A stretch of 41,703 bases of DNA from Pseudomonadota bacterium (GTDB lineage Bacteria; Pseudomonadota; Gammaproteobacteria; Burkholderiales; Burkholderiaceae_C): positions 1-41,703 of the forward strand of contig JAGTRL010000003.1 of assembly GCA_018261815.1 (NCBI GenBank), in the 5' to 3' direction. A program made the translations under genes and the position numbers. The notes beneath the pieces were generated by a model. That model searched no databases. It was not told the DNA's origin and saw nothing but the letters and a program-made list of their open reading frames with translations. This document shows positions 27,860 through 41,703 of the stretch, in pieces (positions within the stretch are counted from its first letter, which is position 1; every line of letters starts with the position of its first letter).

Positions 27860-28807
27860 TCATTCGCGCGCGTCCAGCTCGCGGTGCCGCACCAGCGTGG
27901 CGCCGCGTTCAGCGAAGCGCCGCGCCAGCGCCTCGCTCAGGTACACCGAGCGGTGCTGCCCGCCGGTGCAACCGATGGCCACGGTGAGGTAGCTGCGCTG
28001 GTCGTCCTCGAAGGCGCCGAGCCAGCGGCGCAGGAATGCTTCGATCTGGCCGAGCATCTCCACCGCGTCGGGCTGCGCCTGCAGGTAGGCGGCCACCGGC
28101 GCGTCACGCCCGGTCAGCGGCCGCAACTCGCGGATGTAGTGTGGATTGGGCAGCACGCGCACGTCGAACACGAAGTCGGCATCCAACGGCACGCCGAACT
28201 TGAAGGCGAAGGATTCGAATACCAGGGTCAGCGCCGTACCGCGCGCGCCGACCAGGTCGCGCACCCAGGTGCGCAACTGGGCCGGGCGAAGCTGGCTGGT
28301 GTCGATGACGGTCGATACCTCGCGCAGCGCGGCGAGCAGCTCGCGCTCCATCTCGATGGCGTCGGTGAGCACGCGCGAGGCGTCGCTGCCCACGCCGCTG
28401 GCCGACAGCGGGTGCGGCCGGCGCGTTTCGGAGAAGCGCCGCAGCAGCGCATCGGTGCTGGCATCGAGGAACAGCGAACGGATGTGCACGCCTTCCTTCT
28501 GCAGCTCCAGGATCAATGGCACCAGGTGCGGCAGCGAGGTGGCATTGCGCACGTCCACCGCCACCGCCACGCGGTGCGTGAAGCGCTCGTGCTCGAGGCG
28601 GATGAACTCGCGCAGCATCTCCGGCGGCAGGTTGTCCACGCAGAAGAAGCCGGCATCCTCCAGCGCATGCAGCGCCACCGACTTGCCCGAACCGGAGATG
28701 CCGGTGATCAGCACGACCTCGCGCCGATCTTCCGGCGCGCCAATGGGCGTGCCATCGTCGGCGGTGCGCGGTACGGCGCGCCTGTCCGGCCGCTGTTCGA
28801 CGTTCAT
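27860..28807 (-). CDS. rapZ: RNase adapter / nucleotide-binding protein RapZ
   Basis: A 315-residue P-loop protein of the RapZ (YvcJ) family. The Walker A GISGSGKS is at 36-43, and the C-terminal [14 protein letters not shown] motif is characteristic. In enterics RapZ controls glucosamine-6-phosphate synthase through small RNAs; in other groups its role is less defined. About 30 poorly conserved residues precede the usual N-terminus. I keep the ATG at 28807 because it overlaps the recN stop (ATGA), although a GTG start just before LITGIS is possible. Confidence 0.94.
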
Positions 28808-30522
28808 CGCGGCTGGTGCGCGCTGCGCGCGGGCTTGTGGTCCACGGGTTCGTCCGCCGCGCCGGCGCCGCCGAGCATGGCTTCGGCATGGGCACGGCTG
28901 GTGCCGGCCAGCCGCTCGCCGCCGAGCATGCGCGCCACCTCGCTGACGCGCGCCTCCCCCGCCACCGGCTGCACGTCGCTGATGGTGGCGCGGCCCTGCA
29001 TCGCCTTGGACACGACGAAATGGTGGTCGGCACAGGCTGCCACCTGCGCCAGGTGCGTGACCGCCAGCACCTGGCTGCTGCCGCCGAGCTGCTTCATCAT
29101 GCGGCCGACCTGGTAGGCGACGCTGCCGCCGACGCCGGCGTCGATCTCGTCGAAGATCAGCGTCGGTGCCGCCGCACCTTTGGCTTCGCCGGCGCGGCTG
29201 GTGGTCACCGCGATGGCCAGTGCCAGGCGCGACAGTTCGCCGCCCGATGCCACCTTGACCAGCCCCCGCGGGCTGCTGCCGGCATGGCCGGCCACCCGGA
29301 ACTCTGCGCTCTCCAGGCCAAAGGCCTGCGGCGTTTCCACCGGCGTCAGCGCCACCTCGAAACGCCCGCCGGCCATGCCCAGCTGCTGCATGACCTGCGT
29401 CACCGCGGCGGACAGCTTCGGCGCGGCCGCGCGGCGCAGCTTGCCGATGCGTTGCGCTTCACTGCGCCAGGCAATCTGCGACTGCTGCTGTGCGGTTTCC
29501 AACGCGGCCAGGTCGGTGGCGGCGTCGACCGAGCGCAGCTCCTGCTTCCAGCCGGCCAGCAGCGCCGGCAGTTCGGCTGGCGGCCGCCGGTAGCGCCGTG
29601 CCAGCGACAGCCAGCTCGACAGCCGCGCGTCCAGCTCGGCGAGGCGCGCCGGGTCGGGCTCGCTGCGGTCGAGATAGGTATGCAGGCTGTGCGCCGCGTC
29701 CTGCAGCTGCGCCTGTGCGCCCTGCAGCACCTCGAGCACCGCGGCCAGGCCGGTGTCGTAGCGCGTCAGGTCTTCCAATGCGTCGATGGCCTGGCTGGCC
29801 AATGCGTCGGCCGCCGGCTCGCCATCAGTCAGCGCCAGCAGCGCGGCGCGCACACCGTCGAGCAGCGACTGCGCATGCGCCAGACGCTGGTGTTCGGCAT
29901 TCAGTTCCTCCCACTCGTCGTCGCCCGGCGCGAGCTTGTCGACCTCGCCGATCTGCCAGGCCAGGCGTTCACGCTCGCGTTCCAGCGTCTCGCCGCGGGC
30001 GCGGGCATCGGCCAGCGCCGCTTCGGCCGCCTTCCAGGCCTGCCACAGCGCGGCCAGCCGGCTGGTGTCGGCGCCGGCCTGCTCGTCGAGCAGCGCGCGC
30101 ACGGCGGCGGGCCGCGTCAGGCTCTGCCACGCATGCTGGCCGTGGATGTCCACCAGTTGCTCGCCGGCTTCGCGCAGCTGGCTGACGGTGGCCGGGCTGC
30201 CGTTGATCCACGCACGGCTCTTGCCCTGGCTATCGATGCTGCGGCGCAGCAGCAGTGTGTCGCTTCCGCTGTCGAAGCCGGCTTCGTCCAACCAGCCGAT
30301 CAGCGCCGGCGCCGTGTCGAACTCGGCCGTGACCTCGGCGCGGGTGCAGCCTTCGCGCACCATGCCGGCGTCGCCGCGGCCGCCCAGGGCCAGTTGCAGC
30401 GCATCGATCAGGATCGACTTGCCCGCGCCGGTTTCGCCGGTCAGCACCGAAAGGCCGGCCTGCAGCTCCACCTCGAGCTGGCTGACGATGACCACGTCAC
30501 GGAGCGTCAAGCGGCGCAGCAT
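28804..30522 (-). CDS. recN: DNA repair protein RecN
   Basis: A 572-residue SMC-like ATPase involved in double-strand-break repair. Walker A GETGAGKS is at 29-36, with a central coiled coil (roughly 150-350) and a C-terminal ABC-type half carrying [12 protein letters not shown] and Walker [13 protein letters not shown]. The gene is flanked by nadK upstream (six-base gap) and rapZ downstream (ATGA overlap). The C-terminal tail after [10 protein letters not shown] is not conserved. No LexA-type operator was recognised nearby. Confidence 0.96.
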
Positions 30523-30528
30523 GAGGGT

Positions 30529-31404
30529 TTAGACCACGCCTTCGTGCCAGCGCAGCTTGCGGCGAAGGGTGGCGTAGTAGCTCCAGCCCCGTGGATGCAG
30601 GAAGCGCACCTTGTGCGCCGAGCGTCGCACGCGCACCTGGTCGCCATGCAGCAGGCTGGCCAGGCTCTGCATGTCGAAGTTGGCCGAAGCGTCGCGCCCC
30701 GCCACCACCTCGATGCGGATCTCATTGTGGTCGGGCAGCACGATCGGTCGGTTCGACAAGGTGTGCGAGGCGATCGGCACCAGCAGCAGCCCGCCGATGC
30801 CGGGGTGCATGATCGGCCCGCCGGCCGACAGCGCATAGGCGGTGCTGCCGGTGGGCGAGGCGATGATCAGGCCGTCGGCACGCAGGTTGGCGACGAACTC
30901 GTCACCGATGTCGATGCGCAATTCGACCATGCTGGCGGTGGCGCCGCGGCTGACCACTACCTCATTCATCGACAGGCCGTCGAAGATCTTGTCGCCGTCG
31001 CGCCAGACGCCGCCTTCGATCATCGTGCGGTGCTCTTCTTCGTAGTCGCCGGCGACCATGCTCTGCAGTGTCTCGCGGTAGTGGGCCAGCGGCACGTCGG
31101 TGATGAACCCCAGCCGCCCCTGATTGATGCCCACCAGCGGCAGGTTGTGGCGCGCCAGCTCGCGCGCAATGCCGAGCATGGTGCCGTCACCACCGACCAC
31201 CACGGCGATGTCGCAGCGCCGGCCCATCTCCGATGGCGACAGCGCTTCATAGTCGGTGACACCGGTGTTCAGCGCGGTGGCCGCGTCGAAGGACACCTCC
31301 AGGCCCAGACGCACCAGGAACTGGGCGATGTCCTCGAGCAGCGGCCGGATGCCATGGGCCTGGTATTTACCCACGATGGCGGCGTGATGGAATCGCGACG
31401 GCAT
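30529..31404 (-). CDS. nadK: NAD kinase
   Basis: A 291-residue ATP-NAD kinase making NADP+. The GGDGTML motif, the NE residues in SMNEVVV, and the conserved [14 protein letters not shown] loop are present. I start at ATG 31404 ([15 protein letters not shown]), which matches the family; an ATG nine bases upstream is possible. A TGTAAT hexamer on the minus strand lies seven bases before this ATG with no ribosome site. It is divergent from hrcA across about 69 bases and heads nadK-recN-rapZ. Confidence 0.95.
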
Positions 31405-31460
31405 GCGACCCATTACACCATAGGGCCCGCGGCGGGGCGCTGTGCCGCAGGCCATGTCCG

Positions 31461-31466
31461 TACAAT
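31461..31466 (+). promoter_or_regulatory. -10-like hexamer TACAAT before hrcA
   Basis: TACAAT ends seven bases before the ATG at 31474. If it is the -10 element, transcription would begin near that ATG and the in-frame ATG at 31465, which overlaps the hexamer, could not be the start. No CIRCE inverted repeat was seen in the nadK-hrcA gap. Confidence 0.4.
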
Positions 31467-31473
31467 GAAAATC

Positions 31474-32502
31474 ATGCTGGACGAGCGCGCAAAAACCCTG
31501 CTCAAGGCCCTGGTCGAGCGCTACATCGCCGAAGGCCATCCCGTCGGTTCGCGCACGCTGTCGCGGGCCAGCGGGCTGGAGCTGTCGCCGGCCACCATCC
31601 GCAACGTCATGGCCGACCTGGAGGAATTGGGGCTGATCGCCAGCCCGCACACCTCGGCCGGGCGTGTGCCCACCGCGCGCGGCTACCGACTGTTCGTCGA
31701 CACCATGCTGACGGCGCGGCCGGTGAACCTGGCCGAGGTGCCGCCGGAAATGGCCGCGGTGCGCGAACAGCTGCACCCCGACCAGCCTCAGCGTGTGATT
31801 GCGCAGGCCGCCAACCTGCTGTCCAGCCTGTCCAACTTCGTCGGCGTGGTCACCGCACCGCGCAAGGCCAGCGTCTTCCACCACATCGAGTTCCTGCGCC
31901 TGGGCGAGCGGCGTGTGCTGGTGATCCTGGTGGCACCCGACGGCGACGTGCAGAACCGCGTGATCTTCACCGCGCGCGACTATTCGCAAGGCGAACTGAT
32001 CGAGGCTACCAACTACCTGAACATGCACTATGCCGGCCTGAGCATCGAAGAGGTGCGCGAGCGGCTGAAGCACGAGATCGAGGCGCTGCGCGGCGAGATC
32101 GCCGCGCTGATGCAGGCCGCAGTGCAGGCCGGCAGCGAGGTGCTGGCCGAAAGCACCGAGCAGGTGGTGGTCAGCGGCGAGCGGAAGCTGCTCGACGTGC
32201 CCGCCTTCGGCAACGACATGGGCAGCCTGCGCAAGCTGTTCGACGTGTTCGAGCAGAAGACCGAGCTGATGCGGCTGCTTGACGTGAGCAGCCGCGCCGA
32301 GGGCGTGCGCATCTATATCGGTGGCGAGAGCCACGTCGTGCCTTTCGAGGAGCTGTCGGTCGTCACCGCACCCTACGAAGTGGATGGCCGCATCGTCGGC
32401 ACGCTGGGTGTGATCGGCCCCACCCGCATGGCCTACGAGCGCATGATCCAGATCGTCGACATCACGGCCCGGCTGGTGAGCAATGCGCTGAGTGCCAAGT
32501 AG
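31474..32502 (+). CDS. hrcA: Heat-inducible transcription repressor HrcA
   Basis: A 342-residue repressor of class I heat-shock genes that binds CIRCE operators and depends on GroEL for activity. The N-terminal winged helix contains [23 protein letters not shown] and [16 protein letters not shown] (read in sections). The C-terminal half includes [17 protein letters not shown] and [14 protein letters not shown]. The start is chosen at ATG 31474 ([10 protein letters not shown]); an alternative ATG three codons upstream overlaps the putative -10 hexamer. The gene stands before the CAU-anticodon tRNA. Confidence 0.93.
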
Positions 32503-33105: not shown

Positions 33106-33816
33106 TTGGACCACCGATCTCACGCCAGCGGCTTTGATATTGCCCGCTACCTGTCGCTTCAGCCCCTGTTCCAGGAGATGGACGGCGAAGAGCTGCAGCG
33201 TCTGGCCGAAGGCTGCAGCCCTGCCCGGTTGAGCCGCGGCGACATGGTTTTTCGCGTGGGCGAGCCCTGCGAGGCCTTCCATGTCATGGTCACGGGGCAG
33301 GTCAAACTGTTCGTGCTGTCGCCGGCCGGCCAGGAGAAGGTGATCGAGATCGTCGGCCCGGGCCAAAGCTTTGCCGAAGCGCTGATGTTCACCCACCGGC
33401 CCTACATCGTCAATGCGCAGGCGCTGGCCGATTCACTGGTGCTGTCGGTCGGCAAGCAGGCCGTGCTCGACGAGATCGGGCGCGATTCGCGCTTCGCGCT
33501 GCGCATGCTGGCCGGCATCTCGCGCCGGCTGCATGGCCTGGTGCGCGATGTGCAGGCCTACGCGCTGCACAGCGGCGCGCAGCGCGTCATCGGCTACCTG
33601 CTGCGCGACAGGGCTGTCGACGACAGCCATCCCGATGAACCCTTCACCGTGACCTTGCCGGTGAGCAAGGCGACGATCGCCTCGCGCCTGTCGCTGACGC
33701 CGGAGTACTTCTCGCGCGTGCTGCACGAGTTCGAAGCCGCCGGGTTGGTGCGCATCGACAAACGCGATGTGCACATCCTCGACCCGAAGCGCCTGGCCAC
33801 CTATCAGGCGCCCTGA
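33106..33816 (+). CDS. Crp/Fnr family transcriptional regulator
   Basis: A 236-residue regulator. The N-terminal cyclic-nucleotide-type sensor barrel (about 15-130) contains VFRVGEPCEAFHVMVTGQVK, and the C-terminal winged helix has VSKATIASRLSLTPEYFSRV (about 185-204). The N-terminal cysteine cluster of true FNR is missing; only two scattered Cys occur (residues 37 and 51). It therefore looks more like the DNR/NnrR or CooA-type branches that sense NO, CO or redox through other ligands. TTG 33106 is the only reasonable start. The gene converges on the redox operon with a 13-base overlap, which makes that operon a plausible target. Confidence 0.9.
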   Translation: MDHRSHASGFDIARYLSLQPLFQEMDGEELQRLAEGCSPARLSRGDMVFRVGEPCEAFHVMVTGQVKLFVLSPAGQEKVIEIVGPGQSFAEALMFTHRPYIVNAQALADSLVLSVGKQAVLDEIGRDSRFALRMLAGISRRLHGLVRDVQAYALHSGAQRVIGYLLRDRAVDDSHPDEPFTVTLPVSKATIASRLSLTPEYFSRVLHEFEAAGLVRIDKRDVHILDPKRLATYQAP

Positions 33817-35726
33817 CGCGGCACCGCCGGCGCTGCGCCCGAGGGCGTGAAGGCGTCGGAGAAGCAGAACGATTCGCCCAGGCCTTGCGCCAGGAAGGCG
33901 GGCACCGCCGCCTCGACCATCTTCACCGAACCGCAGGCATAGACCTCGTGGCCGCTCAGGTCGGGGAAGTCCTCGAGCATGGCCTCGTGCACCAGCCCGC
34001 GCCGGCCGGTCCAGCCGTCGCCCGGCGCACCGTCGGACAGCACCGGCACGACCTGGAAGTTGTCGTGCTCGCGCTGCCAGCGTTCGGTCAGGTCGAGCAG
34101 GTACAGGTCGTCGCGGTGTCGCACCCCCCAGTACAGGCGCATCGGCCGGCGGATGCCGCGATGGAATGCGTCCTCGACGATGCTCTTGATCGGCGCGAAG
34201 CCGGTGGCGCCGGCGACGAAGAGGATCGGCCGTTCGCTTTCATGCAGCGTGAAGCGGCCCAGCGGGCCTTCCAGGCGCAGGCTGTCGCCGACCTTCAGTT
34301 GATTGAAAACGAAGCTCGTGAAGCGACCGCCCGGAATCAGCCGCACGTGCAGCTCGATGAATTGGTTGTCGTGCGGCGGGTTGGCGAAGGAGAACGCGCG
34401 CCGCTGGCCGTCGTCGAGCACGATGTTCAGGTACTGGCCGGCAGCGAAGTCCAGCCGCTCGCCCTCGGGCAGCGCCAGCAGCAGGCGTTTCACATCGGCG
34501 GCCAGCGGCTCGATACGCACCACGCTGCCGACCAACTGGCGCACAACGTTGCCGCCCGCGGGCGCCATCGACTCGACCTCGATTTCCAGGTCCTCCAGCG
34601 GCACGGCACAACACATCAGCGCCTGCCCGCGCGCGCGCATGGCCTCTGTCAGCACGGCGGGCTGGTAGGCGCCCTGTTCGACGCGGCCGTTGAGCACCGT
34701 GCACAGGCACAGACCGCAGCCGCCGGCGCGGCAGTCGTAGCGCAGCGGCAGGTCGGCGCGCAGCCCGGCTTCGAGCAGCGTCTCGCCGCTGCGCACCGTC
34801 ACCGGCACGGCGCCGGGGTGCACGGTCAGGTGCAGCGCTGCGGCCTTCGCGCCGCCGCGCCGCCAGCGCAACCACGGCAGCGCCAGCAGCAGCGCGGTCG
34901 CGCCACCCATCAGCGCCCACACCGAGCCCAGCGGCCAGTCGTCGATCAGCGGCAGCAGCGGCAGCAGGAACCAGTCGAGCTGCAGTGCGGTTGGCGACAC
35001 ATCGAGCTGCGCGGGGCCGCCCTGGCTGGCCACCGGCAGCCCCAACGACAGCACGATCAGCGTCACGCTCACACTGATGGCGATGGGCCGTGGTGGCTGC
35101 GTGCTGGCCTTTGGCACGCGCTGCACATGCACCCACATCAGCAGCAGCGTGAGCAGCGGCACACCGATGTGGATGAAGACCAGCAGCGAGAAGAAGCGGT
35201 CGCTGACGCTGGCCGGGTAGATGAAGTTGCGCATCAGCGCGCCGCCAAAGCTGGGCAGCCAGTCCAGCCACTCGAAGCTGGCGGTGATGACGAACTGTGC
35301 CAGTTGATCCCAGGGCAGCATGTAGCCGTTGACGCCGGCCACGTAGACCAGCCAGATCAGCACCACGCCAGTGACCCACGAAAACCAGCGAAAACCGCGC
35401 AGCCGGTCGAAGGCGAAGTAGCGCAGCATGTGGATCACCATGGTCACCACCATCGCGTCGGACGCATAGCGGTGCAGGCTGCGCAGCACGCTGCCCGCAA
35501 GCCACGGCGCGTTTGTCACCATCTCTACCGAACGGTAGGCGCCGGTCACGCTGGTGTTGAAAAACGCAAAAAGCACCAGGCCGGTGCCGCAGACGATCCA
35601 GAACAGGAAGAAGCTGATCGCGCCCAGGTGGTACAGCGGGTTCAGGCGGTCACCGAAGGCGCGGTTGAACAGCGCCTCGGCGTGCATGAACAACCAGCGC
35701 AGCAGCCGCTGCAGCGCCGCGATCAT
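33804..35726 (-). CDS. Cytochrome b - [2Fe-2S] ferredoxin - FAD/NAD(P)H reductase fusion protein
   Basis: A 640-residue three-part membrane protein. Residues 1-290 form a cytochrome b/b6-type domain with two H-x13-H heme pairs, His85/His99 and His186/His200, and several membrane helices. Residues 296-385 are a plant-type [2Fe-2S] ferredoxin with C332, C337, C340 and C372. Residues 395-615 are a ferredoxin-reductase module with FAD motif RAFS at 443-446, nucleotide-binding GATGFAPIKS and a CGS at 598-600. The predicted path is NAD(P)H to FAD to 2Fe-2S to heme b, like a single-chain NADH:quinone or heme donor. The ATG overlaps the upstream stop (ATGA). The true acceptor is unknown. Confidence 0.92.
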   Translation of the reverse strand: MIAALQRLLRWLFMHAEALFNRAFGDRLNPLYHLGAISFFLFWIVCGTGLVLFAFFNTSVTGAYRSVEMVTNAPWLAGSVLRSLHRYASDAMVVTMVIHMLRYFAFDRLRGFRWFSWVTGVVLIWLVYVAGVNGYMLPWDQLAQFVITASFEWLDWLPSFGGALMRNFIYPASVSDRFFSLLVFIHIGVPLLTLLLMWVHVQRVPKASTQPPRPIAISVSVTLIVLSLGLPVASQGGPAQLDVSPTALQLDWFLLPLLPLIDDWPLGSVWALMGGATALLLALPWLRWRRGGAKAAALHLTVHPGAVPVTVRSGETLLEAGLRADLPLRYDCRAGGCGLCLCTVLNGRVEQGAYQPAVLTEAMRARGQALMCCAVPLEDLEIEVESMAPAGGNVVRQLVGSVVRIEPLAADVKRLLLALPEGERLDFAAGQYLNIVLDDGQRRAFSFANPPHDNQFIELHVRLIPGGRFTSFVFNQLKVGDSLRLEGPLGRFTLHESERPILFVAGATGFAPIKSIVEDAFHRGIRRPMRLYWGVRHRDDLYLLDLTERWQREHDNFQVVPVLSDGAPGDGWTGRRGLVHEAMLEDFPDLSGHEVYACGSVKMVEAAVPAFLAQGLGESFCFSDAFTPSGAAPAVPRQGA

Positions 35727-37159
35727 GCTGGCGCCTGCAGACCCAACTGCGCACCCGGCTGCCGCAGCGCGCGCACCACCACCACCACGAAGAGCAGGCC
35801 GCCGACGATGGCCAGCAAGCCGCCCAGCCCCATCAGCCCCATACCCGCCACCTCGGCGCTGCTGCGCAGCACCTGCTCGCTGCCGGCCACCTTGCGCTGC
35901 ACCCCGTAGCCGCCCGACCAGACCAGGCCGACGATGTGCAGCAGCTGGCCGGCGCCATACAGATAGGGCTGTGCCACGGCCAGCCGGCCTTGCGGCGTGC
36001 CGTAGCCCAAGCGCGGCAGCAGCTGGTAGACCAGGCCCATCAGCGCCAGCGTCACGCCGACGATGCAGCCGTGGTAATGCGCTGGGATCTTGACGTTGTT
36101 GCCGCCGATCAGCAGCCCGATCAGGCCGCCGGCGGCGAACAGCAGCATCGACGAGACCAGCGCGGCGCGCAGCGGCCGGCGCGTCGCCTCGATACCGCGC
36201 AGCGGCAGCAGCGACAGCAGCACCGCCAGCGCCACCGGCAAGATGGCCACGCCGCCGCCGAAGCGCATGGCCGCGGTGTGCAGGTTGCGGTGCTCGACGC
36301 TGGCGACGTCGTGCGCCAGGTAGGCATAGGGCGTGACGAAGACGCTGGCCAGCGCCAGCGCGAACATCAGCAGCGCGATGCGGGGGCTCAACGGCACGCG
36401 CGCGCCGCAGGCCTGCGCCAGCCACAGCCAGCCGACCAGCATTAGCAGCGTCCAGGTGAACTGCAGCGCGTGGCCGCCGCCCCAGAACAGGATCTCGTAG
36501 TAGGCCTTGCCGTCCAGCGCCGTGGGCACCACCGCCAGCGACCAGACAAAGGCCATCAGCGCGATGGCGGCCGACACCGCGCTGGCATTGAGGCCGAAGC
36601 GCAGCGCATCGGCGCCGCCGAACATGCCGCCCAGGCGCGGCGCGGCGATCAAGGCGCGCAGCACCTGCAGCGCGAAGCCGGCGGCAAAGGCCACCAGCCC
36701 GGCCAGGAACATCGGCCCTTCCAGCACCGGGATGTAGTTGGCCATGATCGGCGTGCCGGGCGAGATGAAGGCGCCCAGCGCCATCAGCACCGTGCCGCCG
36801 CCGCACAGGCCGAGCGCGACCCAGCTCCAGGACTCGACCCGCGGCGTGGCGTTCAGGCTCCACAGCATGCCGGCCATGGCGGCGAACCACACCCCCACCG
36901 ACAGGTCCACATGCACCACCAGCGCGACGCGGAAGAAGTCGGCCACCGGCAGCCACTGGTTGATGCCGGGCGTGCGCGCTGCCACCAGCAGGATCGAGAA
37001 CACGCCCGAGCCGACCAGCGCCAGCAGCCCGAGCCACAGCCAGGCGCGCGTCAAGGCACGCTGCTCCGTGGTGGGCATGGGCAGGCTGTAGTCGTGGGAC
37101 GCTGCGGCCGCGCCGCGCTGTGAAGGGGCCAGCGCCGAGGGATTGACCAGGGTGTTCAT
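35723..37159 (-). CDS. Divergent heme-copper oxidase / nitric oxide reductase-like subunit I
   Basis: A 478-residue protein with about 12 hydrophobic helices and a COX1-like heme-ligand layout. His83 (VVHVDLS) fits low-spin heme in helix II, His230 (FWGGGHALQF) fits helix VI, and His361/His363 (AHYHG) fit the helix X pair. The helix VI tyrosine of oxidases is Phe234. In helix VII the expected His-His is best aligned to His283-Asp284 (LAHD), with His290 and His294 as other candidates. It therefore lacks a standard CuB/Tyr site. NO reductase-like or redox-transfer activity is inferred, not shown. It lies between the two cytochrome b fusions and overlaps the next gene by ATGA. Confidence 0.8.
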   Translation of the reverse strand: MNTLVNPSALAPSQRGAAAASHDYSLPMPTTEQRALTRAWLWLGLLALVGSGVFSILLVAARTPGINQWLPVADFFRVALVVHVDLSVGVWFAAMAGMLWSLNATPRVESWSWVALGLCGGGTVLMALGAFISPGTPIMANYIPVLEGPMFLAGLVAFAAGFALQVLRALIAAPRLGGMFGGADALRFGLNASAVSAAIALMAFVWSLAVVPTALDGKAYYEILFWGGGHALQFTWTLLMLVGWLWLAQACGARVPLSPRIALLMFALALASVFVTPYAYLAHDVASVEHRNLHTAAMRFGGGVAILPVALAVLLSLLPLRGIEATRRPLRAALVSSMLLFAAGGLIGLLIGGNNVKIPAHYHGCIVGVTLALMGLVYQLLPRLGYGTPQGRLAVAQPYLYGAGQLLHIVGLVWSGGYGVQRKVAGSEQVLRSSAEVAGMGLMGLGGLLAIVGGLLFVVVVVRALRQPGAQLGLQAPA

Positions 37160-37169
37160 GCGAAGGCTC

Positions 37170-37709
37170 TCATCTCAAGGTGATGCCGCCTTGTTCGGCG
37201 TCGAAATCGATGACCAGGATCTGCGCCGGCGCCAGCTTGACGACCTCCTCGCGCTGGTGCGTGAAGCCGGCCTGGCGTGCGTCGTCGTTCAGGCGCACGG
37301 CAATGCGTTGCTCACCCGCGGCCACCTGCAGGCGGTGGTACACGGCCGAGGCGCCGTCGCGGGACAGTCCGGAGGGTGCGGCCACGCGCTTCAGCACTGG
37401 CACACCGCCGATATCGACTTCCACCGTCACCGGCGAGCGCTCGCGCGGGCATTTCATCGGTGCACGCATGTTGGGCGGCAGCTTGGCCAGTTCGTCCGCG
37501 CTCAACGGCCGGCAATCGCCGACCGGCTTGCCGGTGTGCGTGAAGCTGAGCTTGATCAAGGCCTGGTCCGGGCCCAGGTGCTGGTAGGTGGGCCAGCGCG
37601 AGAACACGCCGATGGCGAGTGCGAACAGCCCGTACAGCAGCGCCTGGCCGACCCAGGCGGCGGCGCGGTGGGGCCGCGGGGCGGCCAGGGTGGCGTGTGC
37701 GTCAGCCAT
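37170..37709 (-). CDS. Single-pass membrane protein of unknown function in the redox operon
   Basis: A 179-residue protein that I do not recognise. One transmembrane helix lies at about 19-36, followed by a soluble domain that is probably periplasmic. The domain has two cysteines (C66, C87) 21 residues apart, and much of its sequence looks beta-strand-like. The topology (short cytoplasmic N-terminus, one helix, beta domain) resembles assembly factors such as FixH/CcoH, but no motif proves this. The ATG overlaps the stop of the cytochrome b-MvhD gene by eight bases, and the gap to the next gene is ten bases. It is therefore clearly part of the operon. Confidence 0.85.
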   Translation of the reverse strand: MADAHATLAAPRPHRAAAWVGQALLYGLFALAIGVFSRWPTYQHLGPDQALIKLSFTHTGKPVGDCRPLSADELAKLPPNMRAPMKCPRERSPVTVEVDIGGVPVLKRVAAPSGLSRDGASAVYHRLQVAAGEQRIAVRLNDDARQAGFTHQREEVVKLAPAQILVIDFDAEQGGITLR

Positions 37710-39258
37710 GGCGTGCCGGCAATGCCGTCGTCGCGATCGGCAAGCCTTGCAGGCGCTGGCGCAGCTGCTGCAGTGCGGCCGCCAGCGACTGCGCATCGGT
37801 GGCATCCACCCAGGCCACCGCCAGCCTTTCGGGGGTGTCCAGTGCACGCAGGTGCGGTTCGCGCTGCCCCTGCAGCCGCTCGGCGGCCCAGCGCTGGCCC
37901 AGGCGGAATTCGCAGGTCCCTTCGGCGCAGCCGCTGACCAGCACGCCGGCGGCGCCGTCACGCAGCGCGTAGTCGACGAAGGACGGCGGCAGCATGCCGG
38001 TGCAGATCAGGCTGAAGGCGGCGACGTCGGTGCCGGCCAGCCGCTCCACGCGCGCGCCCCGGTCGCAGCCGAAGACCACGATGGGCCGCTCGGCCTGCAG
38101 CGCGCCCAGGCCCTGCTGCAGGCGCCGGCGCAAGGTGCTCACCGTCAGCTGCGGCATGTCGATGCCGGTCACCAGATCGGCCACGCTGCGGAATGGCGTC
38201 GACGACGGGCAGGCGCCGGCGCAGATGCCGCAGGCGATGCACAGGTCGGCATCGACGCGCGCCAGTTCCTTGCCCGGTTTGCCGTTGGGGTGCGGCACCA
38301 TCGTGATCGCGGCATAGGGGCAGTCTGCGAAGCAGCGCCGGCAGCCATTGCAGTTGGCGGCGTCGACCACGGCCACCGGCGCGCGCGCCGGCTGTGGCAG
38401 GAAGGGCAGGGCCAGCAGCAGCAGCAGGCTGGCGCTCACGGCCCACCAGACGGCGCCGGCCGAGGTGGCGTAGGTCAGGGGGTGCAGGAACAGCAGGATC
38501 CAGTCCAGCGCCAGCACCGCCGGCACCGTGCCGGCGTCGGCCGGCGGGTGGCTGGTGATCGGCGCACCGAGCGCCAGCACACACAGCACGCCGAAGGTGG
38601 CCAGCGCCAGCGGCCGCGGCGGGAACACCGCCGCCCGCGTGAGCCGCTGCACGTGGAACCACAGGCCGAAGATCATCATCAGCGCCACGCCCAGGTGGAC
38701 GAATACGAAGAGCGAGAACAGCCGGTCGCCGACCGCGCCGACGGTGAGGAAGTTGCGCGCCAGCGGCGTCGCCAGCAGCGGCAGCGCGTCCAGCCATTCG
38801 GCGCTGGCCACCGCCGAGAACTGGCCCAACTGGTCCCAGTTGAGCCAGAAGCCGCCAATCGCGCTGACGAACGCGAACACGATCAACGGCACCCCCGTCA
38901 GCCACGAGAAGCGCCGGATGCCCTGGTAGTGGCCATGCAGCCATTCGCGCGCCAGGTGCGCCAGCATCAGCACGACGAAGGCATCGGCCGCGTAGCGGTG
39001 CAGGCTGCGCAGCCAGCCGCCCAGGTACCAGGGCAACGAGGCCAGGCCGTGGATCGAGCGGTACGCCCCCGCGGCCGAGGTGTCGATGACGGCGTAAAGG
39101 TAGATGCCGCTGACGGCCAGCAGCCAGAAGCACAGGAAGCCCAGCGAGCCCAGGTGGCGCAGCGGGTTGAGCGCCGAGCCGAAGGCCGCGTCGAAGAGCC
39201 GCTCCATGCGCTGCCAGCCGGCCAGACCGTACAACCGAAACGTGGCCAGGTGCTGCAT
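37702..39258 (-). CDS. Cytochrome b - 2x[4Fe-4S] ferredoxin - MvhD-like fusion protein
   Basis: A 518-residue membrane protein. Residues 1-290 form a cytochrome b domain paralogous to the one in the 33804-35726 gene, with heme pairs His87/His101 and His188/His202 (both H-x13-H). Residues 300-352 hold two classical [4Fe-4S] motifs, C303-306-309-313 and C340-343-346-350. Residues 390-510 resemble MvhD, the iron-sulfur subunit linking hydrogenase to heterodisulfide reductase, with C398, C419, C444 and C449. It could pass electrons between a soluble low-potential donor and membrane hemes. No hydrogenase or Hdr gene is in the window. Confidence 0.9.
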   Translation of the reverse strand: MQHLATFRLYGLAGWQRMERLFDAAFGSALNPLRHLGSLGFLCFWLLAVSGIYLYAVIDTSAAGAYRSIHGLASLPWYLGGWLRSLHRYAADAFVVLMLAHLAREWLHGHYQGIRRFSWLTGVPLIVFAFVSAIGGFWLNWDQLGQFSAVASAEWLDALPLLATPLARNFLTVGAVGDRLFSLFVFVHLGVALMMIFGLWFHVQRLTRAAVFPPRPLALATFGVLCVLALGAPITSHPPADAGTVPAVLALDWILLFLHPLTYATSAGAVWWAVSASLLLLLALPFLPQPARAPVAVVDAANCNGCRRCFADCPYAAITMVPHPNGKPGKELARVDADLCIACGICAGACPSSTPFRSVADLVTGIDMPQLTVSTLRRRLQQGLGALQAERPIVVFGCDRGARVERLAGTDVAAFSLICTGMLPPSFVDYALRDGAAGVLVSGCAEGTCEFRLGQRWAAERLQGQREPHLRALDTPERLAVAWVDATDAQSLAAALQQLRQRLQGLPIATTALPARHG

Positions 39259-39276
39259 GGTCGCTTCACCGAGGCA

Positions 39277-40152
39277 TCAGCGAGACAGCTCGCCGGCGAT
39301 CCGTGGTGTGCCGGCATGCGCTTGGCGTGCGCGCCGTCGGTTGCGCCATTCCACGCCGAAATACACCGCCACGCTCAGGAAGAACAGCAGCCCGCCGACG
39401 ATCTCGAAGATCAGCGCGTAGTCGTAGCGGTACTCGCCGGTCTCGGGGTCGTACACCGTGCACAGGATGCGCACGCGTTCGATCACGTCGGTGAGTTGCA
39501 GGCGCGGCGGCAGCGCTCCTTCAGTCAGCAATTGACGCAGCGGCTCGCCGATGCGCTGCGCGTTCATGCGCTCGCCATACACCTGGGTGTGGATGCGGCC
39601 CTGCGCATCGACCAGCGTGATGCCGAGCACGTGGTCGAAGCCGGCGGGCGTGGCCACGTAGCGGAAGCCGAAGTCGCGCGTCAGCGCCTCGACGATGGCC
39701 GGCGGCGGGCTCAGGAACTCCCAGTTCGGATAGTCGATGCCGTGCTGGGCGGCGAAGGTGCGCATCGCCGCCGGCGAATCGAAAGGCTGGTTGAAGCCGA
39801 TGCTGATGACGTTGAACTGGTTCGGCGCCAGCAGCTTGTCCAGGCCCTTCACCGCCTCGTGCAGCGCGCGCGTGCTGGCCGGGCAGATCTGGAAGCAGCC
39901 GGTGTAGATGAAGCTCACCAGCAGCGGCTTGCCGCGGTAGCTGGACAGGCGCACCGGGCGGCCCTGGCGGTCGAGCAGCGTGTAGTCGGGTACGCGCGTG
40001 CCCACCGCGGCGTCGCCGGCCTGCAATGCGCTGCGCTCGTCGAGCGCGGAGGGAGTCTCGGCCAGCGCCGGAGCAAGCAGTACGGCGAGCAGCAGCCCGA
40101 AGCCCGTGGCGCGCAGGCGTCGTGGGATCGATCGTTCAGCGCAGCGCCGCAT
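39277..40152 (-). CDS. SCO1/SenC family copper chaperone with C-terminal membrane anchor
   Basis: A 291-residue thioredoxin-fold protein of the SCO family, which delivers copper to heme-copper oxidases. The copper-binding residues are Cys86 and Cys90 (CFQIC) and His174 (GFDHVLG). A signal peptide occupies about 1-31. Beyond the normal domain is an extra region with another Cys (C231) and a transmembrane helix at about 246-268, anchoring the protein at its C-terminus. The start at ATG 40152 overlaps the ctaB stop by 17 bases. It lies between heme O synthase and the cytochrome b-MvhD gene, so it likely metallates one of the COX1-type subunits. Confidence 0.93.
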   Translation of the reverse strand: MRRCAERSIPRRLRATGFGLLLAVLLAPALAETPSALDERSALQAGDAAVGTRVPDYTLLDRQGRPVRLSSYRGKPLLVSFIYTGCFQICPASTRALHEAVKGLDKLLAPNQFNVISIGFNQPFDSPAAMRTFAAQHGIDYPNWEFLSPPPAIVEALTRDFGFRYVATPAGFDHVLGITLVDAQGRIHTQVYGERMNAQRIGEPLRQLLTEGALPPRLQLTDVIERVRILCTVYDPETGEYRYDYALIFEIVGGLLFFLSVAVYFGVEWRNRRRARQAHAGTPRIAGELSR

Positions 40153-41035
40153 CGACTGCCACCGCAGCCAGCAGGACGCTGAGCTGCACCATCGAGGCGA
40201 AGAACGACGCCATCGCCGTACCGCGACCGGGGGCGCGTGCCAGCGCGTGGGCCTTGCGCACGAAGTGCGCCCCGCCGGCCAGTGCGCCGAGCCCGTAGAT
40301 CCAGCCGGCGCCGTAGAACAGCGGCAGCAGCGACACCGCCACCAGCAGCAGCGTGTTGGCGTAGACGATGCGCGCCGCGCGCGCGGGCCCCACCACCACC
40401 GGCAGCATCGGCACGCCGGCGGCGGCATAGTCCGCGTGGTTGGCGATGGCCAGACTCCAGAAGTGAGGCGGCGTCCACAGGAACAGCACCAGTGCCAGCA
40501 GCAGCGGCAGCGCACCGATCGTCGGGTCCACCGCCGCGGCCCCGGCCAGCACCGCAAAGCTGCCGGACAGCCCGCCGACGACGATGTTCAGCCAGCTGCG
40601 CCGCTTCAGCCACAGCGTGTAGACCACGGCGTAGAAGAAGGCACCGAGAAAGATGAACAGCGCCGACGTGGCATTGAGCACGACGGCCGCCGCAGCCACC
40701 GCGCCGGCCAGCAGCGCGCCGATGGCCAGCAGCCACAGTGGCGTGGGCTTCAACGCCCCACTGGCAAAGGCGCGACGGCGCGTGCGCACCATCAGGCGGT
40801 CGCTGTCGGCTTCGATGTACTGGTTGAAGGCCCCCGCGCTGGCCGACGCCACCAGCACCGACAACGCCAGCACCAGCACCTGCGCCAGGCTCAAACCGGG
40901 TCCACTGGCGATGGCCATGCCGCCGAGCGCGGTGATCATGATCAACACGCCGATGCGCATCTTGAAGACGCCCAGCACCGTGCGCAGCAAGCCGATGGCG
41001 GGGCGGTCGGTGGCCTGCATCACGGTGGTGTTCAT
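40136..41035 (-). CDS. ctaB: Protoheme IX farnesyltransferase (heme O synthase)
   Basis: A 299-residue UbiA-superfamily prenyltransferase with about nine membrane helices that converts heme B to heme O. The first polar motif NQYIEADSDRLMVRT (Asn71, Asp77, Asp79) and the second region WTPPHFWSLAIANHADY are intact. A strong AGGAG lies upstream of the ATG on the minus strand. It sits 44 bases downstream of the COX1-family gene, implying that at least one oxidase in this operon uses heme O or A. It could also be named cyoE. Confidence 0.96.
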   Translation of the reverse strand: MNTTVMQATDRPAIGLLRTVLGVFKMRIGVLIMITALGGMAIASGPGLSLAQVLVLALSVLVASASAGAFNQYIEADSDRLMVRTRRRAFASGALKPTPLWLLAIGALLAGAVAAAAVVLNATSALFIFLGAFFYAVVYTLWLKRRSWLNIVVGGLSGSFAVLAGAAAVDPTIGALPLLLALVLFLWTPPHFWSLAIANHADYAAAGVPMLPVVVGPARAARIVYANTLLLVAVSLLPLFYGAGWIYGLGALAGGAHFVRKAHALARAPGRGTAMASFFASMVQLSVLLAAVAVDAALR

Positions 41036-41079
41036 CGGCGGTCTCCTGGAGCGGCAGTGGCGAAGCAGGGTTCAGCGGA

Positions 41080-41703
41080 TCAGCTCAGGCCCCACAACGT
41101 GGACAGGTACTTCCAGTTGATGAAGTAGTACAGCACGAAGGCCACCAGGAAGACCATCGCCAGCACGAAGGTGCCGGGGGCGGCGAAGCCGGCCGAGCCG
41201 TGCGACTGCGCCACCACCGTGGGCGCGGTGCGCGGGATCGGCGTGAACTTCGGGCTCTGCGCGCCGGGCTCGAGCTTCTTGCCCCACAGCAGCGAGCCGA
41301 CGGTGACGTAGATGTAGATGCCGCCGCTGACGATGGCCACGATGCCGCCGATGCCCACCAGGCCCATCATCAGGTAGGCCGCGCCGGGCCATTCGTACGC
41401 CAGCGCCGCACCCTGGAAGGCCATGTCCCAGTGGCGGCGCGACACGCCCAGCGTGCCCGCGCCCATCATCACCAGGCAGAAGAAGTACATCGAGAAGCCG
41501 AACAGGTAGGGCTGCCACATCGCCAGCTTCGGCGCGATCATCTCGCGGCGGAACAGCACCGGGATCAGCAGGTAGGTCAGCGCCATGAAGGTCAGCGTGG
41601 TGCCCACCACCACCGTGGCGTGGAAGTGCCCCGGCACGTAGATGGTGTTGTGGATGATCATGTTCAGCTGCTCGGTGCCCATCATCACGCCGGAGATGCC
41701 GCC
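41080..41703 (-). CDS. Heme-copper oxidase subunit I, C-terminal part (5' end outside window)
   Basis: The last 207 residues of a COX1-family protein entering from the right edge. The conserved helix X segment HNTIYVPGHFHATVV supplies the His pair that binds the high-spin and low-spin hemes. About five more hydrophobic helices follow, ending in YFINWKYLSTLWGLS. The YVPGHFHATVV wording is closer to B-type oxidases and related NO reductases (such as sNOR) than to the usual A-type HFHYVLS. The CuB residues lie outside the window, so oxidase versus NO reductase cannot be decided. It heads the visible part of the redox operon. Confidence 0.9.
   Translation of the reverse strand, partial: GGISGVMMGTEQLNMIIHNTIYVPGHFHATVVVGTTLTFMALTYLLIPVLFRREMIAPKLAMWQPYLFGFSMYFFCLVMMGAGTLGVSRRHWDMAFQGAALAYEWPGAAYLMMGLVGIGGIVAIVSGGIYIYVTVGSLLWGKKLEPGAQSPKFTPIPRTAPTVVAQSHGSAGFAAPGTFVLAMVFLVAFVLYYFINWKYLSTLWGLS

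Follow-up and report, generated by a model that had tools for sequence, protein, structure and literature searches.

A predicted eNOR-type nitric oxide reductase operon with an accessory module of two cytochrome b fusions and a COX1-fold protein

A 41,703-nucleotide stretch of DNA from a Pseudomonadota bacterium of the Burkholderiaceae_C (the window; contig JAGTRL010000003.1 of assembly GCA_018261815.1) ends in a cluster of minus-strand genes for a heme-copper subunit I, a heme O synthase, a copper chaperone, two cytochrome b fusions and two further membrane proteins. Which enzyme does this cluster encode, and what do the cytochrome b fusions do beside it? We approached these questions through what can be observed directly: gene order, metal ligands, a diagnostic residue read in relatives, linkage and co-occurrence. 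The catalytic genes very probably encode eNOR, a nitric oxide (NO) reductase, as judged by the published residue rule and gene order. The overall reading developed here, an eNOR denitrification operon in which the accessory genes bM, X, N and bF form a cytosolic electron-input unit, has in our estimate an even chance of being right.

C105, the contig that the window spans from end to end, is one of 460 in an assembly (G000) that is 85% complete. The contig end cuts the operon inside the subunit I gene, leaving only the last 207 residues (360-566 of ~566) in the window, which holds the 3' two thirds of the operon. Helix VI of subunit I and subunits II and IIa lie outside the window, past the contig end. 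The initial annotation had listed the same seven minus-strand genes at 33804-41703; the spacing that it gave (8-44 bases) is corrected here: neighbouring genes overlap by 4-17 bases or stand 10-44 bases apart. It had also seen no cytochrome c, and the CxxCH motif is indeed present in none of the seven operon proteins. The genes, with the regulator gene that faces them, are as follows.

41080..41703, minus strand: putative eNOR subunit I, C-terminal 207 residues, helix X HFH present (identity to the subunit I of relatives)
40136..41035, minus strand: CtaB/CyoE heme O synthase (NCBIfam TIGR01473 above cut-off)
39277..40152, minus strand: SCO/SenC copper chaperone, start codon uncertain (Pfam SCO1-SenC, CFQIC motif)
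37702..39258, minus strand: bM, 518-residue fusion of cytochrome b, two 4Fe-4S sites and an MvhD/FlpD domain (Pfam)
37170..37709, minus strand: X, membrane protein of 179 residues with one transmembrane helix and a beta-sandwich (predicted model, pLDDT 90.6)
35723..37159, minus strand: N, COX1-fold protein of 478 residues (Pfam COX1, AlphaFold2 model, residue counts)
33804..35726, minus strand: bF, 640-residue fusion of cytochrome b (two bis-His hemes), a 2Fe-2S ferredoxin and an FAD/NAD(P)H reductase (FNR) (Pfam)
33106..33816, plus strand: Crp/Fnr-family regulator, convergent with the operon and overlapping its last gene by 13 bases (Pfam cNMP_binding, HTH_Crp_2)

A search of 100 relatives with bM gave 25 matches, two of them (G009 and G081) through the cytochrome b part only, and 18 stretches from 17 genomes were then compared with the window. 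Its part of subunit I is 80-92 percent identical in 13 of the 17 relatives compared and 62-70 percent identical in the other four. The eNOR assignment of the window rests on relatives, because the window shows only residues 360-566. Their full-length subunit I (~566 residues) belongs to the B-family of heme-copper oxidases, with ba3 oxidases as the best solved relatives (PDB search, best E 9e-50). The helix VI Tyr that cross-links to a CuB His in B-family oxygen reductases is replaced by Gln in all 131 aligned rows, which represent 130 distinct sequences from relatives. The six His for two hemes and CuB are each intact in 131 of 131 rows, and both helix X His are also present in the window. 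According to PMC8756737, Gln at this position marks eNOR, Tyr oxygen reductases, Asn sNOR, Asp gNOR and Glu cNOR and qNOR. The catalytic subunit thus carries neither the mark of a B-family oxygen reductase nor those of sNOR (Asn) and cNOR/qNOR (Glu), and its best solved relatives are not of the cNOR/qNOR kind but B-family. Because Gln replaces the cross-linking Tyr, the catalytic pair is a known kind of enzyme, eNOR (PMC8756737), and not an undescribed heme-copper oxidase as had been proposed. At the aligned ba3 K-channel positions S309, Y248 and T315 subunit I has Ser, Tyr and Thr/Ser, and at T312 it has His.

The gene upstream of subunit I agrees with this assignment. Subunit II of ~179 residues, with all CuA ligands, lies directly upstream of subunit I in 64 of the 68 loci that hold subunit I; in the other four (L120 among them) the contig ends before II. 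The CuA ligand motif is found in 119 of 119 subunit II locus matches, some of which come from loci of the same genome, and the best match of subunit II among solved structures is the CuA subunit of ba3 oxidase. The described eNOR likewise has the Gln, the six-His set and a cupredoxin, CuA-type subunit II immediately upstream, as given for the genome treated in PMC8756737. The earlier statements that a CuA subunit is absent and that the chain bypasses cytochrome c therefore reflect the truncation of the operon by the window's end; the CuA subunit of relatives fits a cytochrome c or cupredoxin donor. A CuA subunit II gene just upstream with normal oxidase residues had been named as evidence that would overturn the initial annotation. 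The relatives have the former, and at the diagnostic position they have Gln, which is not the normal oxidase residue.

A pattern search showed that 91 of 96 distinct stretches (loci L026-L123 and L195-L212; the exceptions are L200, L206, L209, L210 and L211) carry a further frame of ~50 codons with one hydrophobic stretch, ~170-240 bases ahead of II. It is likely subunit IIa, the third subunit that B-type oxidases are described to own (PMC3128077). Fold and CuA subunit II are shared with the Thermus ba3 oxidase, a B-family oxygen reductase. The ba3 enzyme differs in having Tyr where the operon's subunit I has Gln. We know of no accessory cytochrome b module for ba3 oxidase. The two-subunit CuA-containing sNOR of ammonia oxidisers (norSY-senC) is also encoded with an SCO/SenC gene (PMC6967387, PMC3772326); it differs in having Asn where eNOR has Gln (PMC8756737, Table A4). 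eNOR is listed among the biochemically characterised NO reductases in a passage citing Murali et al. 2024 (PMC11388526). Reports place it in Gallionellaceae (PMC10734462) and Zetaproteobacteria (PMC8114936) and, as a putative enzyme, in Beta- and Gammaproteobacteria (PMC8756737). eNOR and its presence in such bacteria are thus already published, and the accessory module is the unexplained part. The literature searched, a body of text that excludes the main eNOR paper and most subscription journals, yielded no account of bM, bF, X or N in connection with eNOR.

The genomes that carry eNOR are mostly equipped to form NO. Among genomes of the order, an NO-forming nitrite reductase (nirS-type or nirK) was found in 33 of 35 eNOR-positive and 14 of 34 eNOR-negative genomes (Fisher p 1.6e-6), the latter hand-picked from listings and not random. 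Of the 33 positives, 30 are counted for cytochrome d1-family (nirS-type) matches below 1e-100, two for fragments and one for nirK; among the negatives, eight have nirS-type matches below 1e-100 and six have nirK above cut-off. The two positives without nirS-type or nirK genes, G000 and G159, are both less than 88% complete. PF02239 covers NirF and NirN as well, which makes "nirS-type" broader than NirS. Of the 32 eNOR-positive genomes with nirS-type genes, 15 have them no more than 14 kb from eNOR, or 15 of the 19 with both on one contig, and in five genomes the distance is at most 1.6 kb; G097 and G161, with the two more than 400 kb apart on one contig, are included in these counts. Family and nir context together suggest that this strain may reduce NO.

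Low oxygen or NO probably induces the operon through a regulator of the Crp/Fnr type. In 74 of 96 loci a box resembling that of FNR/DNR (up to two mismatches) is present at a distance of 200-400 bases ahead of II, compared with 155 of 1920 random 200-base windows taken at the same size from the same loci and mostly coding. A Crp/Fnr homologue (blast E <1e-5) is in the locus in 18 of the 80 related loci introduced below. On the far side of the operon, at 28804-32502, the window holds what appear to be recN-, NAD kinase- and hrcA-like genes.

How firmly are the accessory genes tied to eNOR? Intact relatives have the order IIa, II (CuA), I, ctaB, sco, bM, X, N, bF, and most of the 18 compared stretches are collinear with the window; in L034 and L036 bF stands before X, and L036 is also without bM. 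A scan of an 84,980-species collection with an N alignment gave at least 567 confirmed relatives, and the best 80 were analysed as loci. These 80, mostly from Beta- and Gammaproteobacteria, were chosen through N and not through the cytochrome b fusions. The N relatives include Comamonas granuli, Piscinibacter caeni, Simplicispira, Ramlibacter, Castellaniella, Herbaspirillum and Dokdonella. In the 80 loci the order II-I-(ctaB)-sco-bM-X-N-bF or a variant with bF-X-bM-N recurs. Both fusions are present in 69 of the 80, at least one in all 80, and X in 79; these counts include record pairs of one genome (e.g. L037/L096 and L034/L110) and are not independent. The linkage of the cytochrome b fusions with the heme-copper genes is thus conserved, as had been anticipated, and lies far above chance. 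In the same-genus relative L030 no N lies beside X, the apparent N match being the eNOR gene; L030 and its duplicate L032 are left out of the N alignment, and L042, in which the N frame breaks early, is left out of alignment A1.

Co-occurrence across genomes ties N to eNOR as well. In a sample of 399 genomes of the order, 35 have eNOR, 34 have N and 33 have both (Fisher p 1e-44); two further genomes on the order's N list matched through the eNOR gene only. In a phylum sample of 349 genomes the numbers are 29, 56 and 28 (Fisher p 1e-24). Kinship makes the genomes of both samples non-independent. Outside the order, eNOR has bM and X as neighbours in 11 of the 18 loci compared (L195, L208 and L210 end too soon to show such neighbours), and N adjoins eNOR in L209 only and lies ~5 kb off in L218, among 18 eNOR loci. 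Linkage of N to eNOR is found mainly in this order and in Gammaproteobacteria. bM-X therefore has the wider linkage to eNOR, and what ties N to eNOR is its presence in the same genomes. Two variants of the cluster were also seen. In L209 (7581-10997) two tandem bM-type fusions lie in an eNOR cluster that also holds X and N. The eNOR cluster of L154 (6193-7356) has a cytochrome b gene (387 residues) from which the Fe-S part is largely lost; neither X nor N was detected close by, and ~1.6 kb separate eNOR from nirS-type fragments.

The residues of the two fusions indicate what they could do. In bM the heme His 87, 101, 188 and 202 are conserved in 105 of 105 rows and the 12 Fe-S Cys in 106 of 106. 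In bF the heme ligand His 85 is conserved in 99 of 100 rows and His 99, 186 and 200 in 100 of 100; of the 2Fe-2S ligands, Cys 332 is conserved in 97 of 97 and Cys 337, 340 and 372 in 98 of 98. bM and bF appear to be two complete redox conduits with different donors. The ligands for the electron input from the cytosol through cytochrome b that the initial annotation had envisaged are intact, and NAD(P)H or ferredoxin input stays a live idea for the accessory module only. X, without any Pfam or NCBIfam match, has two Cys (C66 and C87) that are invariant in 18 sequences. As candidates for a CcoG-type cupric reductase bM and X fall short: CcoG is described as a single chain with two 4Fe-4S clusters and a periplasmic immunoglobulin-like domain (PMC7558416), and here the parts are separate genes.

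N has the full heme-copper subunit I fold in its AlphaFold2 model. The window's N keeps the helix II His, the helix VI His and HYH in helix X, and both helix VII CuB His are replaced (Ala279 and Tyr280), so two of the three CuB His are gone. Within the window's clade the heme His are kept in 87 of 87 rows, and 85 of 87 have Tyr in place of the second helix VII His. In the wider N family (25 rows) the helix VI His is present in all 25, the first helix VII His in none and the second in 14. N thus does not have the full set of three CuB/FeB His ligands of a standard heme-copper subunit I. A small CuA-type subunit II gene with the ligand motif lies directly beside N in L224 (7629-9708) and L226 (7521-9439), where N and this subunit possibly form a two-subunit complex of their own, and two or three genes from N in L213 and L229. 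A CtaA-like gene also adjoins N in L224. A divergent N paralogue, 41-45 percent identical and with a C-terminal TPR region, is found in L157 (9263-11410), L158 (9219-11342) and L159 (1751-3679), whose genomes also hold the main operon; TPR-type matches were seen in L157. A gene adjoining the L157 paralogue resembles CcmF.

We propose that IIa, II (CuA) and I (heme-copper, with Gln for Tyr) would form the enzyme, which would catalyse 2 NO + 2 e- + 2 H+ -> N2O. CtaB would make the eNOR heme and SCO would load CuA. bF would accept electrons from NAD(P)H, and bM from a ferredoxin-like or dehydrogenase partner. The two b hemes of each fusion would carry them across the membrane. X and N, with its degraded CuB site, may be docking or relay parts that pass electrons to the quinone pool or to eNOR. 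This input would run beside the route from cytochrome c to CuA.

The module would serve as cytosolic electron input either to the enzyme itself or to its assembly, two readings between which sequence cannot decide. Input to the enzyme is our tentative preference, at somewhat less than even odds, because the module appears to hold two complete conduits, each with its own kind of donor, and because N is built in a redox-competent way. The main competitor, which we consider unlikely yet next in rank, is a biogenesis machine: bM and bF would send cytosolic electrons outward to reduce Cu(II) or heme and thiol intermediates, and SCO, CtaB, X and N would load CuA, CuB and hemes into eNOR. The module sits directly after ctaB and sco, and bM and X together resemble CcoG/FixG, an Fe-S cupric reductase that serves cbb3 oxidase and combines a membrane 4Fe-4S electron carrier with a periplasmic beta-sandwich, encoded with the oxidase (PMC7558416). 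Outside the order, N also has maturation genes nearby. However, CcoG is a single polypeptide and X is without any Pfam match; the operon splits the parts over two genes and adds cytochrome b and MvhD or FNR domains. CcoG is not known to carry heme b. A catalytic metal reductase would also need less than two diheme cytochromes, one of which has a complete NAD(P)H reductase attached. A bolder form of the input reading is less probable than the biogenesis machine: a supercomplex of denitrifying proteobacteria in which cytosolic NAD(P)H and ferredoxin would feed eNOR directly through the two cytochrome b modules and N, a CuB-less transmembrane diheme wire, bypassing bc1 and cytochrome c, with N founding a non-catalytic or newly catalytic heme-copper class.

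Could N instead be an enzyme in its own right, of a new heme-copper-like class, that catalyses a reaction or binds substrate, works with a CuA subunit II and here shares that of eNOR or acts beside it? The full fold, the conserved heme His, the CuA-type genes beside or near N and the second helix VII His in 14 of the 25 wider-family rows, which gives two of three CuB His there, suit this idea. The first helix VII His is absent throughout and the second is Tyr in nearly all of the window's clade; no binuclear site of a known type can form there because the helix VII His are lost, and we consider a catalytic N improbable. Even less probable is that the catalytic pair is an ordinary high-affinity B-family oxygen reductase. 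Its nearest solved structures are ba3-type oxidases, and the related sNOR has been argued to be possibly an oxidase (PMC6967387), but the invariable Gln and the nirS-type genes that accompany eNOR point to NO reduction.

Several observations weigh against an eNOR operon fed by its module. Only one cytochrome b fusion is present in 11 of the 80 loci, several of them cut by contig ends, and among distant loci with flanking sequence no bM or X lies near eNOR in four (L196, L197, L198 and L203). In L098 (1191-9282) bM and N, without X, adjoin a different, non-eNOR oxidase cluster, whose SCO-, subunit II-, COX1- and CtaB-like genes are 27-38 percent identical to the eNOR set. eNOR occurs without detected N in G372, where the contig ends inside bM, and in G445, which also has no detected X; G204 has a divergent N only. 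N is present in 28 of the 320 eNOR-negative genomes of the phylum sample. Outside the order it is mostly unlinked from eNOR and adjoins CtaA (Pfam; L213 and L215) or DUF420 and an ABC transporter (Pfam; L221), or lies near CtaB (blast; L220 and L226); several other such loci have no maturation or CuA-type neighbour. These maturation-gene neighbours, the scant linkage and the eNOR-negative occurrence suit a maturation role or a separate complex. The loss of CuB in N comes in degrees and is complete in the window's clade alone, because 14 of the 25 wider-family rows keep one helix VII His. CuA points to cytochrome c as the donor, which makes a second electron input unnecessary. Helix VI and subunit II were not found in the window's own assembly, the subunit II search having no positive control, and nirS and nirK were not found in this 85%-complete genome. 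Nearer to subunit II, FNR-type boxes are present in 4 of 96 loci (0-100 bases) and 0 of 96 (100-200 bases).

Cytochrome c oxidase is a frequent annotation of eNOR genes (PMC8756737), and N2O formation by many Betaproteobacteria may therefore go unnoticed. The present operon provides a marker set for eNOR. If the module does feed cytosolic electrons, it would link NO reduction to NAD(P)H and ferredoxin, a coupling that to our knowledge has not been described for any NO reductase. N would then be a heme-copper subunit that has lost its copper site and has yet been kept beside its parent enzyme.

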